Shown: piece by piece, positions 3,948 to 64,000 of the stretch
How positions within the stretch are numbered: position 1 is the first letter of the stretch
Layout: each line of letters begins with the position of its first letter
Assembly: GCF_001025195.1 (NCBI RefSeq)
Contig: NZ_AP012325.1
Location: forward strand, 930,001-994,000
Direction of reading: 5' to 3'
Length of the DNA stretch: 64,000 nt
From: Bifidobacterium catenulatum DSM 16992 = JCM 1194 = LMG 11043
GTDB lineage: Bacteria > Actinomycetota > Actinomycetes > Actinomycetales > Bifidobacteriaceae
Translations under genes and position numbers: made by a program
Notes under the pieces: model-generated
The model's database searches: none
Seen by the model: only the letters and a program-made list of their open reading frames with translations
Told to the model about the DNA's origin: nothing

Positions 3948-4038
3948 TGGTGTCCGGAGCGGGACTTGAACCCGCACGCCTGTATAAAATAGGCACTAGC
4001 ACCTCAAGCTAGCGCGTCTACCATTCCGCCACCCGGAC
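3948..4038 (-). tRNA. tRNA-Leu (anticodon GAG), CCA encoded
   Basis: Read on the minus strand, the gene begins GTCCGGGTGGCGGAATGG and ends with a matching acceptor strand, discriminator A (3951) and an encoded CCA (3948-3950). The T-arm is GGGTTCAAGTCCC. The anticodon arm is CTAGC-TTGAGGT-GCTAG, giving anticodon GAG for CUC/CUU leucine codons. A long variable arm, typical of tRNA-Leu, accounts for the 88-nt body. Confidence 0.95.
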
Positions 4039-54442: not shown

Positions 54443-54790
54443 CTATCTGGTTTTAATGGAATCTTCGGTTCTGATGCGGTCGGCCCACTTATCGATGTCG
54501 ATATTTTCGTGAGATGTCTCAAAATCGCTTATAACTTCTGGGTCTTTGCTGAGTTCATCAGCGTCGGTGATGATTTGCGATAGCGGCATCTTCAAAGCGT
54601 CCGCAATCCGATGCAGTTGCTCGTAATCGGCAACGGTGTTTAAATCAAATATTTTACGAAGCGTGCTGTATGGCACACCTGACTTCGCAGCCAACGCTGG
54701 GCCTTTGATCCCTCGCGTTGCCATTGCTCTCTTGATTGCTATCGATAGCGCCTTTGATTCGATAGTTGGGATTTTCTTTCCTGTTGCCAT
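54443..54790 (-). CDS. Phage repressor (CI-like helix-turn-helix protein)
   Basis: The protein has 115 residues. The HTH_XRE-type domain is at about 14-70: AMATRGIKGPALAAKSGVPY and STLRKIFDLN form the helix-turn-helix. The acidic C-terminal part has no peptidase motif, so RecA-stimulated autocleavage is unlikely. It is divergent from the Cro-like gene across a 91-bp region with palindromic operators. The start has no ribosome site; TAAAGT lies seven bases upstream, fitting a leaderless message. Confidence 0.82.
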   Translation of the reverse strand: MATGKKIPTIESKALSIAIKRAMATRGIKGPALAAKSGVPYSTLRKIFDLNTVADYEQLHRIADALKMPLSQIITDADELSKDPEVISDFETSHENIDIDKWADRIRTEDSIKTR

Positions 54791-56932: not shown

Positions 56933-57131
56933 AACGCTAAGCCTCCTCACAAAACTGCCAGATGACATGTTCACAGCCCTCATCCCAAATGATGCGAAGA
57001 ACGGAGCTACTGGAAACGTGATTCTTCCAGAAGATTTGGTGAAAGCCATGCGCAGAGGCTCCAAAGAACTCCAAGCCAAATACAACACCACCGACATGAT
57101 CGACATTCTCTACGCGGAGGCAACCAAATGA
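56829..57131 (+). CDS. Phage hypothetical protein, 100 residues
   Basis: It starts at ATG 56829 behind AAAGGAACC. It is soluble and helical: TRQQKLKYLTDNGYLHNLRG, then a middle LSLLTKLPDDMFTALI and a C-terminal YNTTDMIDILYAE. Its stop overlaps the antirepressor start (ATGA, 57128-57131). Function unknown. Confidence 0.65.
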   Translation: MKVTAPNETRQQKLKYLTDNGYLHNLRGELGMSTKTLSLLTKLPDDMFTALIPNDAKNGATGNVILPEDLVKAMRRGSKELQAKYNTTDMIDILYAEATK

Positions 57132-57964
57132 ACGGCGATATCGTCGAAGTCCCATTCAACGGGAGCATGATGATCGCGCAAAGGTTCGATGACGGTGAAA
57201 TCTACGCGGCATTGAAACCGATTTGCGAGAACATCGGCATCGCATACAACGGACAGTGGGAACGGCTCAACAGAACGCCATGGGCAACCGTTCGTATCAT
57301 ACGAACAGTTGGCGCAGACGGTAAACAACGTGACATGGTGGCAATCAGCCGCAAGACGTTGACCATGTGGCTCGCCACCATCGACACGAACCGACTCAGC
57401 GACGAGCAGGCACGCCATAACGTGACCGTCTACCAGAAGGAAGCCGCAGAAGCCCTCGACAAGTACTTCAACGAGGGTGGCGCAATCCGCGTTTCCGATG
57501 CTGATTCGGACGAGGACATCATGGCCCGTGCCGTGCTCGTCGCGCAGAAGACCATCAAACAAAAGAACCAGCAGATCGCTTCGCAGCAGTCGCGCATCGA
57601 CGAACTCCAGCCCAAGGCGTCCGCGTGGGACAACTTCGTCGATATCGACGATGCGCTTTCCGTTCGTGATTCCGCGAAACTGCTCAGCAACCTGGGTAGG
57701 ACTGTCGGGCAGACGGAACTGTTCGAATGGCTTGACCGGCATGACTGGATCTTCCGTGAGAACAAGCATTGGTCCGCGCGTCAGAGCCGTATCAACGCCG
57801 GGCATCTGATGATGGTTCCGTCGAAGTCGCATGGGACGCACAAGGACGGGACTCCGTTCGCGTTCCCGCCGACTGTGAAGGTCACGAGGAAGGGTCTTGC
57901 CCTGATCGCCCGCCGGTTCGGCGAGGAAACGCTCCAGCTCGAATATCCGAAGGCTGGTGCGTGA
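57128..57964 (+). CDS. Phage antirepressor (P22_AR_N plus KilA-C-type)
   Basis: The protein has 278 residues. The N-terminal domain (about 1-115) reads VPFNGSMMIAQRFDDGEIYAAL...ICENIGIAYNGQWERL, the P22_AR_N/BRO-like antirepressor fold. The coiled stretch QKTIKQKNQQIASQQSRIDEL (about 140-160) leads to a KilA-C/ANT domain (about 170-275). Antirepressors bind and inactivate repressors or modulate the lysis decision. Overlaps the gene on each side by four bases or one base. Confidence 0.9.
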   Translation: MNGDIVEVPFNGSMMIAQRFDDGEIYAALKPICENIGIAYNGQWERLNRTPWATVRIIRTVGADGKQRDMVAISRKTLTMWLATIDTNRLSDEQARHNVTVYQKEAAEALDKYFNEGGAIRVSDADSDEDIMARAVLVAQKTIKQKNQQIASQQSRIDELQPKASAWDNFVDIDDALSVRDSAKLLSNLGRTVGQTELFEWLDRHDWIFRENKHWSARQSRINAGHLMMVPSKSHGTHKDGTPFAFPPTVKVTRKGLALIARRFGEETLQLEYPKAGA

Positions 57965-59686: not shown

Positions 59687-60343
59687 ATGGCCAATTACAG
59701 CTACGAGACGTTGCAACGGATGAGCGCCCACCCATGGGAGGGACTCAAGCCCGGCCAGCGCAAGGCCGTACGCAACTTTAACAGGAAGGAGGGAGCGTCC
59801 GAACCGGACATGCTCGAGGCGGAACGCATCCTTGAGGAGCATCCGAACCTGAGCATGGACGAGGCCCTGAACACGAGCACGAACCCCTCGTACCGCAAGG
59901 CCAAGGCCGACACCGACAGGCGCATCGCGGAGACCCACGGCACCGCCAAGACACCCAAGCCAGCCAAGACGGAAAAGCCGAAGAAGGGCGTGGCGGAACT
60001 GGTCGGCGAGGCGTTGAACGCGAAGCCCGCGGCCACGTCGACCGGTCCCGACTGGCAGTGGATCGACAGCCTGCCCCACGACTGCGCGCCGGTTCCCGAG
60101 CAGGGCGTCTACGCGTCGCTCGCCGCGGCGATGCGCGCCAATCCCGGCATGTGGACCAAGATGCGCGGCTTCGCCCGCTGTGACCTCAAGTGCGCGCGCA
60201 GCCGTGCTCGCGCGCTGGCGAACCGCGTGAACTCCGGAGGCATTACGTCGATGCGTCCGAAGGGCTCCTTCGAGGGCGCGTTCCGCACTTTGGAGGACGG
60301 TTCCGCGGTCTGCTTCGCACGCTACGTGGGAGAGGGGGAGTGA
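59687..60343 (+). CDS. Phage hypothetical protein, 218 residues
   Basis: It starts at ATG 59687 behind GAAAGGAAGTGG; the frame upstream passes through the tRNA-like element and is not used. A helical N-terminus is followed by a Lys/Pro-rich linker ([13 protein letters not shown]) and a C-terminal domain with cysteines ([21 protein letters not shown]), perhaps nucleic-acid binding. It sits directly before SSB (TGATG overlap), so a role in replication or recombination is likely. Confidence 0.6.
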
Positions 60344-60876
60344 TGGCAGGGGAGACCGTCATTACGATCGTCGGCAATCTGACCGCGGATCCGGAGGTCC
60401 GCACGACGTCCGCGGGCGCGCAGGTCGCGTCGTTCACGATCGCCAGCACGCCGCGCTCCTGGAACCGTGGCACGAACCAGTTCGAGGATGGTCAGGCTTT
60501 GTTCCTGCGCTGCAGCGCGTGGCGCGATCTGGCCGAGCATTGCGCCCGCTCCCTCGCCAAGGGCATGCGTGTGATCGCCCAGGGCAGGCTTACGCAACGC
60601 TCCTACGAGGCGAAGGATGGCACGCAGCGCACGGTCGTGGAATTGCAGGTGGATGAGATCGGCCCAAGCCTGCGGTATGCGACGGCGCAGGTGGCCAAGT
60701 CGCAGCGGGGTACGGCTGGAGCGTATGGGAATCCGTCTTCCGCTCCGGCTGGCTATACGGGTGGCACCACCGCAGCTGCGGCTTCGTTGCCGCCTTCCGA
60801 CCCGTGGGGTTCGGTTTCGGGTTCGTCGTCTTCGTTCGGTGATTTCGGCAAGCCGGAATCCGAACCGGATTTCTAA
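60343..60876 (+). CDS. ssb: Single-stranded DNA-binding protein
   Basis: The protein has 177 residues. The OB fold opens with [21 protein letters not shown] and contains [33 protein letters not shown] and [20 protein letters not shown] Gly/Ser/Pro-rich linker ends in the acidic tip EPDF, which resembles the SSB protein-interaction tail (DDDxPF-type). It coats single strands during phage replication and recruits partners. Start overlaps the previous stop. Confidence 0.95.
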
Positions 60877-60885
60877 GGAGAAATC

Positions 60886-61794
60886 ATGAGCATGAAAGCA
60901 TTGGAGTGGGCCATGTACGACGTGCCCGCCGAAATGACCAAAGGAGCGCTTCTCCGCATCCTCCTCGCGCTCGCCGACCATGCCGACACCGAAGGAAACG
61001 GCGCGTTCCCATCCCAGAAACGCTTATGCGCGCTCACCGGGTACAGCCGCCGCACCATCCAGCACGGACTCCACGACCTGGAGGCATCCGGACTGATCGT
61101 CAAAGGCGACCAGAGACTCACCGAACACTACGGACGTCACCGACCGATCGTATGGAACCTCACCATGGAGGATTTCAGGGGCGTAAAAACTGCGCCCCTG
61201 AAAAAGAACGAATCCGAGGCGCAGCATACTACGCCTCAAAACAGCCAAGAGGCGCAATTAGGGGCGCAAAAAACAGTCGTTAGAGGCGCAATTAGGGGCG
61301 CAATACCACTACGCCCAAACCTATATAAGGAAGAAAGTTATATAGAACCTAGAGAGAGTAACGCGCGCGCGAGAAAACAAATCCCAATACCAGCCGACTG
61401 GAAACCCACCGAAGAACACCAGGCGCTCGCCGACAGGCTCGGCATCGACTGCGACGTCGAAGCGGGGAAGTTCAAGGACAGGGCACTCGACACCGGCGCC
61501 ACATCGGCCGACTGGGACGCGAAATTCCGCATCTGGCTCATGCGCGGCCACGAACTCGGATACACCACCGTCAAAAACCAGCAATCAGCGAGGAAGTACA
61601 CGTGGGCGAGCGACGAAGTGAAACGCGTCATCGGCACCGACCTCGAAGGCACCGACGACTACATGGAGCTCGCGTGCAAGGTCGCGGACCTGCTCAACCA
61701 GGGCGTGGACCCGGACATGCTGCGCCGTCAGCTCGCAAACGTGCCCGACACCGCGTGGGTCGAACAATTGTTCGAACAGGAGGCGGCGGCATGA
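60886..61794 (+). CDS. Phage replication initiator (winged-helix)
   Basis: The protein has 302 residues. The N-terminal winged helix (about 18-95) reads GALLRILLALADHADTEGNGA, FPSQKRLCALTGYSRRTIQHGL and HDLEASGLIVKG, a HTH_36-type domain found in lambda-O-like initiators. The central region is low-complexity because the DNA carries repeats: two exact 21-bp copies and several inverted repeats between 61173 and 61350. The C-terminal part is helical and may contact a helicase loader. Like lambda O, the gene seems to contain its own origin. Confidence 0.85.
   Translation: MSMKALEWAMYDVPAEMTKGALLRILLALADHADTEGNGAFPSQKRLCALTGYSRRTIQHGLHDLEASGLIVKGDQRLTEHYGRHRPIVWNLTMEDFRGVKTAPLKKNESEAQHTTPQNSQEAQLGAQKTVVRGAIRGAIPLRPNLYKEESYIEPRESNARARKQIPIPADWKPTEEHQALADRLGIDCDVEAGKFKDRALDTGATSADWDAKFRIWLMRGHELGYTTVKNQQSARKYTWASDEVKRVIGTDLEGTDDYMELACKVADLLNQGVDPDMLRRQLANVPDTAWVEQLFEQEAAA
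61173..61350. other. Candidate phage replication origin inside the initiator gene
   Basis: Inverted repeat TTTCAGGGGCG / CGCCCCTGAAA (61173-61203) comes first, then GAGGCG..CGCCTC (61216-61237). Two identical 21-bp units follow (61249-61269 and 61283-61303, 34 bp apart). Then an AT-rich stretch carries CTATATAA-N9-TTATATAG (61319-61345). Iterons followed by an AT-rich unwinding element is the lambda-type origin layout. Confidence 0.6.
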
Positions 61795-61982
61795 ACGCCA
61801 TGACCATCGCACACATGGCCGGCGTCCTCACCTCGGCCATCCAAGACGCCGACCGATTGGAACTCGACGCGCTCAAAGGCCCAGCGCTCGCCGATATGGA
61901 CCTTGACCGCATCCGCAATATCAAACGCGACTGCTCGACCTGCATCAACCTGCTCGACCAGCTCGGAAGGGAGCGACGATGA
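61791..61982 (+). CDS. Small phage protein, 63 residues
   Basis: It starts at ATG 61791, overlapping the initiator stop, and its own stop overlaps the next gene. It is acidic and helical (AIQDADRLELDALKG), with two cysteines in RDCSTCINLLDQL near the end. No domain recognised. Confidence 0.65.
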   Translation: MNAMTIAHMAGVLTSAIQDADRLELDALKGPALADMDLDRIRNIKRDCSTCINLLDQLGRERR

Positions 61983-62383
61983 GCGACCGGCAATTCCAGG
62001 AATCGAAACGCGTCGCCTTGCAACGTCAGGGTTGGCATTGCATGCGTTGCGGACGCAACCTGCACGACCCGACCGTCTGGCCGGGCAGGAGCGGCCACCA
62101 CCGGCAGTTGCGCCGTCGGGCCGACCCGACCGTGCGTGACCTGCCGTGCAACATCGTCGAACTGTGCGGGTCGGGCACGACCGGCTGTCATGGTTGGGCG
62201 CACGCGCATCCGGCCGAGGCGGAACGGTTCGGCTACATCATCCCGAGTTGGCGTGGTCCGCTCAACGCGCCGATACGCGACTGGAACGGCGACTGGTGGT
62301 GGCTGTTGGATGACGGCACGGCGCAACGGCTCACTCAAATCGAAATCATCGAATGGCAAAGCGATTGGAAGGAAGAATCATGA
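61979..62383 (+). CDS. HNH-like zinc-binding protein
   Basis: The protein has 134 residues. CMRCGRNL, HHRQLRR and NIVELCGSGTTGCHGWAHAH supply the paired cysteines and histidines of an HNH/treble-clef nuclease, and the AHPAEAERFGYIIPSWRGP stretch is typical of phage HNH proteins. It could nick DNA during replication or recombination. Tight overlaps with both neighbours (ATGA). Confidence 0.75.
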   Translation: MSDRQFQESKRVALQRQGWHCMRCGRNLHDPTVWPGRSGHHRQLRRRADPTVRDLPCNIVELCGSGTTGCHGWAHAHPAEAERFGYIIPSWRGPLNAPIRDWNGDWWWLLDDGTAQRLTQIEIIEWQSDWKEES

Positions 62384-62958
62384 GGAAACAGGACGAAGAC
62401 CGGAATGGGAAGCCGGAGGCGCTGCTCTGGCTCGACTTCGAAACGACCGGTACGGACAGGAATGACAGTCTGCCGTTGGAGGTCGGCATGGAATGCACCG
62501 ACGTGCTGGGCGAGCATTCGTATGGATCCCTGCATCGCATCATCAGACCGGACTATCTCGACCTGTTGGACATGAGTCCGATGGCGTTCTCCATGCACAC
62601 GGACAATGGTCTCCTGTTCGAACTGCTGAACGGCTCCGACAGGAACGACTGCGTGGAAGCGGTCGTGAACGCTGTGGAGGAGTATCTCGAATCCCTGTCG
62701 CAACGCTTCACCTTGGTTCCGGCCGGAACGAACGTGGACTTCGACCTCGACTTCCTGAAACGTCTCGACCTGAACCCGGACAGGTGGCTGTCCTACCGCA
62801 AGTTCGACCTGACCACGCTCCGCCGGTATTTGAGGTTCATCGACTGTCCCGAGGATCCGTACGAGGGGCATCGTGGCACGCACAGGGTGCGCGACTGCAT
62901 CCGACGCGACATCAACGACTACATCCGATACCGCAAGCTCCTGAAGGGAGCATGGTGA
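62380..62958 (+). CDS. DEDDh-type 3'-5' exonuclease (DnaQ/oligoribonuclease-like)
   Basis: The protein has 192 residues from ATG 62380 behind GGAAGGAAG. WLDFETTGTD holds the first catalytic Asp and Glu (motif I), PAGTNVDFDLDFL the second Asp, and GTHRVRDCIRRDI the His and last Asp (motif III). It resembles oligoribonuclease more than polymerase epsilon subunits. A phage exonuclease in the replication block. Confidence 0.87.
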   Translation: MRKQDEDRNGKPEALLWLDFETTGTDRNDSLPLEVGMECTDVLGEHSYGSLHRIIRPDYLDLLDMSPMAFSMHTDNGLLFELLNGSDRNDCVEAVVNAVEEYLESLSQRFTLVPAGTNVDFDLDFLKRLDLNPDRWLSYRKFDLTTLRRYLRFIDCPEDPYEGHRGTHRVRDCIRRDINDYIRYRKLLKGAW

Positions 62959-63933: not shown

Positions 63934-64000
63934 CAAGAAACCCGACCTTCCGGCCGGGCTCCTGACACCACCAGAAGACTACCACGCCGGAGGGAATCGA

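Follow-up and report, generated by a model that had tools for sequence, protein, structure and literature searches.

A putative replication origin in the linker region of a Bifidobacterium prophage initiator gene, with covariation of recognition helix and iterons

The stretch of Bifidobacterium DNA analysed here (the window, 64 kb) carries a prophage with a replication initiator gene, and the part of this gene that encodes the protein's linker is, judging by its sequence, very probably the replication origin of the prophage. The best reading of this region is an in-gene origin of the lambda/SPP1 type. An origin within the initiator gene, with its elements in the order known from lambda, was the original prediction, and it is supported by the succession of iterons and AT-rich DNA, by the relatives of the gene, and by covariation of the recognition helix with the iterons. 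In-gene origins are textbook knowledge for lambda; to our knowledge, the origin is not annotated in most temperate phages. The coordinates of the features are collected in Table 1.

Table 1. Features of the initiator gene and its neighbours, in positions of the window.
Feature	Position	Strand	Basis
Single-strand DNA-binding protein (SSB) gene, upstream of the initiator gene	60343..60876	+	PF00436 1.3e-26, phrog_44
Initiator gene, 302 aa: wHTH, linker (predicted disordered), C-terminal domain (predicted helical)	60886..61794	+	PF13730, phrog_1032, structure model
Codons of the predicted recognition helix (aa 55-68), with putative specificity residues Arg56 and His60	61048..61089	+	model; H60 and R56 are the top two of 68 columns versus iteron class
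Iteron pair 1, convergent (61179-61185 +, 61191-61197 -)	61173..61203		inverted repeat
Iteron pair 2, convergent (61217-61223 +, 61230-61236 -)	61216..61237		inverted repeat
Tandem iterons of pair 3 (61250-61256, 61262-61268), within the first 22-bp direct repeat	61248..61269	+	
Tandem iterons of pair 4 (61284-61290, 61296-61302), within the second 22-bp direct repeat, whose codon frame differs	61282..61303	+	
Ninth iteron, GGGCGTA	61310..61316	-	motif search
Presumed unwinding element of AT-rich DNA (71% AT), containing the inverted repeat CTATATAA-N9-TTATATAG	61316..61350		
Conserved box AGAGAGAGTAACGCGCGCGC, after the AT-rich stretch	61351..61370	+	pattern match 61352-61367
HNH endonuclease gene, downstream of the initiator gene	61979..62383	+	phrog_740 2.5e-31
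Exonuclease gene, downstream of the initiator gene	62389..62958	+	phrog_192 DNA polymerase exonuclease subunit 3.2e-18

The initiator protein has a full-length profile match to the PHROGs family phrog_1032, "replication initiation protein" (4.8e-36, residues 1-247), and a Pfam match to HTH_36 (PF13730) at residues 23-71 that lies above the cut-off (1.3e-13; 50.9 bits versus 25). Five of six initiator relatives tested also passed PF13730, L056 being without any Pfam match; NCBIfam offered no usable family for the five proteins searched. In the structure model, block-mean pLDDT is 81-92 at residues 1-90 and below 50 at residues 98-145 and 148-161; the linker is predicted to be disordered and the C-terminal domain to be helical. 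Searches by sequence for relatives of solved structure returned only 5zhc (E 0.89) for the whole initiator and only four unrelated-looking chains (E 0.51-0.98) for a profile of the C-terminal domain. The model of the C-terminal domain had no match at E 0.001 or better in a fold search of the PDB (best Z 4.8), and among viral models its best six matches (E 1.1e-3 to 2.6e-2) are to phage proteins of the HTH, DNA-binding, replication or DUF1376 kinds. Since the fold search with the wHTH matched many unrelated wHTH proteins, regulators included, no family was assigned from the fold; the similarity to 5kbj and 4pt7, two among many unrelated wHTH chains, is generic only.

The iteron motif RGGCGYA occurs nine times at 61179-61316, six times forward and three times reverse, out of 43 matches in the whole window; one 500-base bin holds these nine and the next-best bin three. 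Shuffles that kept the protein and its codon use never reached nine copies (0 of 2000; mean 0.9, maximum 5), and the longest exact direct repeat, 22 bp, compares with a mean of 8.2 and a maximum of 15 in 2000 shuffles. The gene thus has the in-gene iteron array that is characteristic of origins of the lambda/SPP1 kind. Apart from the AT-rich one, all of the repeats named in the original prediction consist of RGGCGYA copies. The two inverted repeats are present and are built of convergent iterons: TTTCAGGGGCG/CGCCCCTGAAA at 61173-61183/61193-61203 (11 bp, 100%) and a second at 61216-61224/61229-61237 (9 bp, 89%). The direct repeats, AGAGGCGCAATTAGGGGCGCAA, are tandem pairs, and are identical and 34 bp apart as predicted, although 22 bp long and not 21; the starts of their four iterons lie 12, 22 and 12 bp apart. 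Because 34 is not a multiple of 3, the two 22-mers are read in different codon phases and encode EAQLGAQ and RGAIRGA, which makes the repeat one of DNA and not of peptide. The linker had been described as correspondingly repetitive, which it is not, and this strengthens the conclusion then drawn that the DNA rather than the protein is under selection, a conclusion that the differing frames and the shortfall of the synonymous shuffles bear out.

The most AT-rich 40-mer of the initiator gene starts at 61322 (72.5% AT versus a gene mean of 40.9%), and no 40-mer at 59.0-63.5 kb exceeds it. This peak adjoins the iterons, as does the AT-rich element of lambda/SPP1-type origins, and is presumed to be the site of unwinding; the AT-rich inverted repeat that had been predicted is present at 61321-61345. 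In three relatives (L048, L078, L080), the AT-rich part, which lies at most 40 bases before the box discussed below, is not an inverted repeat but a tandem array of ATCCACTAA repeats or ATTAAGAA-like repeats, as in classical unwinding elements. An origin of the DnaA type was rejected, there being no DnaA-box-like TT[A/G]TNCACA, the sole pattern tried, at 60-62.5 kb.

Sites of this kind could instead be operators, through which a wHTH protein regulates the early operon from inside its own gene while the origin lies elsewhere. The fold is the common wHTH that is found in many regulators, and protein binding inside a gene can block transcription; nevertheless, nine sites with an adjoining AT-rich peak, and a 22-bp phasing in the family, resemble an origin, PHROGs names the family for replication initiation, and lambda and SPP1 provide precedents, so that the operator explanation is improbable. 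It is slightly less probable still that the sites are a secondary binding region comparable to SPP1 oriR, with the primary origin elsewhere. SPP1 does have two such regions, with one protein binding both (PMC6316719), but in a scan that covered the window nine of the 43 RGGCGYA matches fall in one bin and no other bin has more than three, and the SPP1 site that is located inside gene 38 is oriL. An origin of the lambda/SPP1 type within the initiator gene is therefore preferred to both.

Named relatives of the initiator occur in B. merycicum, B. erythrocebi and the Bifidobacterium phages Bbif-1 and PMBT6, which points to a Bifidobacterium host. A protein relative at E 1e-6 was found in 39 of 112 genomes of the genus, the window's own included, and a diverse alignment (A1) matched only 5 of 396 genomes of the phylum at E 1e-10, again with the window's own among them. 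The collection of relatives covered viral contigs and phage records as well as genomes of the genus, and a profile built on the N-terminal domain yielded 115 distinct genes; 67 non-redundant relatives, with wHTH domains at most 95% alike, were taken from 111 genes of at least 130 residues. In 46 of the 67, a blind count of in-gene repeats came out higher than in any of 40 synonymous shuffles, and same-strand copies fall in more than one codon phase in 45 of these 46; the 21 that failed the shuffle test include L047 (5 vs 5), a near relative of the Bbif-1 gene. The first repeat site lies a median of 3.5 residues from the end of the wHTH (range -58 to 41), position having played no part in the search. 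As negative controls, 14 longer genes of Bbif-1 were hand-picked from its 61 features and each cut at 990 bases, and one exceeds its shuffles (5 vs 4); the Bbif-1 initiator itself has 7 repeats against a shuffle maximum of 6, and lambda O, the positive control, has 5 against 4, located at its annotated iterons. Two more distant wHTH genes, L134 and L225, have strong but different linker repeats (CCCGCAGAA, GGAACAGTC), which suggests that origins inside genes are not confined to the GGGG iteron class.

Four-fold degenerate sites were compared between the window gene and ten close relatives. The proportions that differ in the wHTH, the iteron linker and the C-terminal part are 18/45, 2/22 and 11/28 for L052 and 18/44, 1/20 and 11/29 for L051; by Fisher's test of the linker versus the rest (2/22 vs 29/73, p 0.009; 1/20 vs 29/73, p 0.003) the linker is slower in both, which are two related comparisons out of the ten, chosen after the table had been seen. 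The amino acids of the linker are not more conserved, with identities to the window of 82% and 76% in the linker and 92% and 89% in the wHTH. Linker sites are slower, less clearly, in L005, L071, L007, L095 and L055 as well, and are not slower than those of the wHTH in the other three (wHTH versus linker, 20/40 vs 6/11 for L067, and 15/26 vs 6/9 for each of L047 and L041). These data bear on the possibility that the repeats simply result from a protein linker that is itself repetitive or of low complexity. The linker is indeed rich in glycine, alanine, glutamine and arginine, as well as predicted to be disordered, but identical DNA occurs in different frames and on both strands and is not reproduced by synonymous shuffles, and in L052 and L051, the two picked afterwards, four-fold sites are slower where amino acids are not. 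Protein-driven repeats were rejected on the codon frames and the synonymous shuffles, and this explanation is almost certainly wrong.

In sequence comparisons the iteron follows the wHTH and not the C-terminal domain. Bbif-1 (L041) and L014 (the same as L047) have a C-terminal domain with 73% amino acid identity to that of the window, a wHTH with 51%, and GGGGTGCAA iterons, whereas L052 and L051 combine a wHTH and iterons of the window type with another C-terminal domain (46% and 47%). The C-terminal part of L067 is 98% identical in DNA to that of the window, behind a wHTH part that is only 79% identical; hence, the modules recombine. A comparison of repeats among relatives with differing linkers had been proposed along with the prediction, and its outcome is favourable: another wHTH is accompanied by other iterons in the same place.

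Which residues of the wHTH accompany which iteron was assessed in those 48 of the 67 relatives, 38 of them significant, whose iterons have a GGGG core and number five or more. Position 8 of the iteron is C in 12 genes, all of which have Arg at the residue matching His60 of the window protein. Among the 31 non-Arg60 genes this position is A in 29, G in one and without consensus in one; five of the 17 Arg60 proteins lack C there (four A, one T), and the significant ones of these five, L090 and L058, have the iteron GGGGTTCAC, with CA one base earlier. Arg60 goes with GGGGTG[A/T]CA and non-Arg60 with GGGGTGCAA, the non-Arg60 class also having TGAAA and TGAAC iterons. The window initiator, with Arg56, His60 and the iteron GGGGCGCAA (of the C5 class, known from one lineage), fits the non-Arg60 class.

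Viral contigs were then searched by DNA pattern alone, for two copies of GGGGTGTCA, GGGGTGACA or GGGGTGCAA separated by 1-30 bases, at least 120 loci being obtained for each. Among the matches listed, the pair lies inside an ORF of at least 60 residues at 343 of 360 loci, and a wHTH, recognised by a profile built from the 67 relatives, is encoded by 237 of these 343 pair-bearing ORFs versus 6 of the remaining 11,265 ORFs, of 100 residues or more, at the same loci. No wHTH was found in 106 of the 343 among the matches listed; chance may account for 56 of these, in which just two sites occur per 300 bp, and the others may be more distant initiators. Of the 196 distinct wHTH domains, 193 are not contained in the first set, near relatives of that set still being included. 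In these new domains, again among the matches listed, Arg60 accompanies TGTCA in 57/59, TGACA in 83/83 and TGCAA in 0/51; in the same order, Arg56 is present in 26/59, 83/83 and 47/51, and Ser or Ala at residue 56 in 28/59, 0/83 and 0/51. With clustering at 40%, the figures for Arg60 are 36/38, 30/30 and 0/19 among the matches listed. Residue 56 provides only a partial rule, because the combination of Arg56 and Arg60 occurs with both TGACA and TGTCA. When all 68 wHTH columns were ranked by association with iteron class, H60 (z 18.3) and R56 (z 10.4) were followed at a distance by the next column (3.3), for 104 representatives at 50% among the matches listed. Residues 56 and 60 are four apart in the predicted helix 55-68, and so probably lie on one face of it. 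In 226 distinct genes among the matches listed, 361 of 494 same-strand neighbours are spaced by 20-24 bp, with a mode of 22 (177), equal to two helical turns, the search itself having required one pair 10-39 bases apart; the annotated iterons of lambda are likewise 20-24 bp apart. Same-strand iterons stand in more than one codon phase in 173 of the 226 genes, among the matches listed.

Covariation of residues 56 and 60 with the iteron sequence would be expected if the initiator binds the iterons, but the wHTH and the linker are parts of one gene and are inherited together, so the association might reflect nothing but their shared descent; moreover, some of the loci found by DNA pattern belong to related phages, and near relatives of the first set are still among them. 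Against this explanation, which is very improbable, only H60 and R56 stand out of the 68 columns, the association persists at 40% clustering, and the joint states, placed on a tree of the 48 genes from which the helix was left out, need 10 changes, versus a mean of 16.7 and a minimum of 13 in 500 shuffles. Recognition of the iterons by the helix is the preferred explanation. No recognition-helix/iteron code for HTH_36 phage initiators was found in the searches of open-licence papers made here, a coverage outside which most subscription journals lie.

Beyond the AT-rich stretch lies a box of the form GAGAGAGTA(A)CGCGCG, also written AGAGAGAGTA(A)CGCGCG, with a single match in the window (expected number 0.00). 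Across 112 genomes of the host genus the pattern GAGAGAGTAN{1,2}GCGCG was matched 16 times, in 13 genomes, and all 16 matches are inside ORFs homologous to the initiator; the reference set for this assignment included some of the same genes, but 15 of the 16 loci are also in the list of wHTH genes, the last being the window gene. The reversed pattern has three matches in the 112 genomes. In 29 distinct contexts, which are partly related and three of which end at contig ends, the box is read in codon phases 0, 1 and 2 in 5, 22 and 2 cases (ERVRA, RES.., KREYARA), which identifies it as a DNA element. It is present in 11 of the 29 loci of the genus search (L012-L040) and in none of 356 loci (L232-L587) among the matches listed from the pattern search; L064, which the TGACA scan found again, has it. 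A pattern longer by one base has 69 matches in viral contigs, 25 of them inside initiator ORFs and 44 outside; 13 of the latter have the same C or AC spacer, several of them with upstream words that are identical too, and in viral contigs the box is therefore not diagnostic by itself. That a host factor or the helicase/primase docks on it is a guess; if it binds a host protein, it would point to a replication factor or loading step of Bifidobacterium that is so far undescribed. No description of the box was found in the searches of open-licence papers made here, most subscription journals being outside their coverage.

A broader proposal can be put forward tentatively, at somewhat less than even chances: that HTH_36 phage initiators are a large family of self-contained origin modules in which two residues give specificity (Arg60 for C8 of GGGGTGnCA, Ser/Ala56 together with Arg60 for T7, and, less strictly, Arg56 for A7), that origins and wHTH-DNA specificities of many uncharacterised phages may be assigned from sequence, and that the Bifidobacterium box, whatever the iteron type or reading frame, serves a host replication factor as a docking site specific to the genus. 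If two residues predict the iteron, the origins of many phages could be located and tested, the joint movement of wHTH and iterons with exchange of the C-terminal half would be explained, and candidate Bifidobacterium replicons for vectors would become available. Given the association of residues and sites across phages, start sites and matching proteins could be recognised by sequence alone. Every initiator gene apparently comes with binding sites of its own, and thus each sequenced member amounts to a measurement of protein-DNA specificity made by evolution.

The arrangement as such is of a known kind, represented by lambda and SPP1, and covariation of a domain with its origin is known in Vibrio PLE. 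In the lambda-type ori of Stx-phage relatives, iterons are followed by AT-rich DNA inside the initiator gene, and in Stx phage P27 iteron changes that are silent for the O protein abolish plasmid replication (PMC7466680). The initiator gene resembles lambda gene O in having an N-terminal DNA-binding domain, mid-gene iterons and then an AT-rich tract; it differs in its Pfam domain (HTH_36, versus Phage_rep_O, PF04492, in lambda O), in its iteron, a short non-palindromic 9-mer that is paired and in both orientations, in having no P-type loader identified directly downstream among the ORFs searched, and in the extra conserved box beyond the AT-rich DNA. PF04492 is not among the Pfam matches of the window protein at E 0.01 (lambda O itself, 5.7e-36), although the O-like families phrog_678 (4.2e-9) and phrog_391 (1.3e-7) match it weakly. 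SPP1 oriL lies within gene 38 and comprises direct repeats bound by the initiator gp38 and an AT-rich unwinding element, and for oriR a role in halting the fork and triggering the change to concatemer replication is proposed (PMC6316719); direct repeats and an AT-rich element are common to oriL and the window gene, binding in the latter being presumed, whereas the loader gp39, the helicase gp40 and a second origin, as reported for SPP1, were not identified among the ORFs searched here. In RepA_N replicons and Vibrio PLE the N-terminal domain binds iterons (PMC7145576, PMC8263062), and in PLE the C-terminal domain is conserved and the DNA-binding domain covaries with the origin (PMC8263062); the exchange of DNA-binding domain plus origin against C-terminal domain is shared with the initiators, but the origin of PLE is described in a non-coding region. 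In Francisella phage KIRK a putative origin with iterons in the coding sequence of fhv_0043 was proposed by comparison with lambda (PMC7924643), a single case with another protein annotation and, in the available text, no covariation analysis. RepA_N (PF06970) is not among the Pfam matches of the window protein at E 0.01, and the chains relevant to a RepA_N fold, 5kbj and 4pt7, are those to which the wHTH likeness is generic. RepC of repABC plasmids, a plasmid system with the RepA/RepB partition genes, is also a wHTH initiator with the origin inside its own gene, repC; it differs in that no significant family match exists here, PF03428 matching only weakly and below its curated cut-off (0.006 for the window protein, 0.0004 for a Pseudomonas relative).

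The following sequence of events can be proposed. The N-terminal winged helix would bind iterons of the form (G)RGGCGYA, with residues 56 and 60 reading the 3' half of the iteron, as the covariation supports. Several initiators, each with a disordered linker to its C-terminal domain, would line up on about nine sites, and their assembly would strain the adjoining AT-rich inverted repeat until it opens, by analogy with lambda and SPP1 and in view of the spacing. The C-terminal domain, which is predicted to be helical and moves between phages separately from the wHTH, may then bring the replicative helicase, probably that of the host. The box just beyond the AT-rich DNA may be a further element of the origin, common to part of the Bifidobacterium relatives whatever their iterons.

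Among the ORFs searched up to the end of the window at 64000, the HNH endonuclease and the exonuclease are the only downstream genes with PHROGs matches, and no helicase or loader was found in the subset of window ORFs that was searched. The annotated gene names of Bbif-1 include one putative primase and no helicase or loader, which suggests, as far as annotation goes, that the helicase of the host is used. The early region of the prophage also encodes an antirepressor with P22_AR_N and KilAC (ANT) domains (57128-57964, + strand). Upstream of the early region, on the - strand, are defence-like genes with GmrSD_N (PF03235; 51646-53034) and HSDR_N (PF04313; 53339-54427) domains and an 83-aa ORF with HsdM_N (PF12161; 51373-51624), and a Cro/CI-type HTH gene (54443-54790, - strand) adjoins the GmrSD_N and HSDR_N genes. 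The sole tRNA gene that ARAGORN predicts in the window is tRNA-Leu (gag), at 3948-4038 on the - strand.
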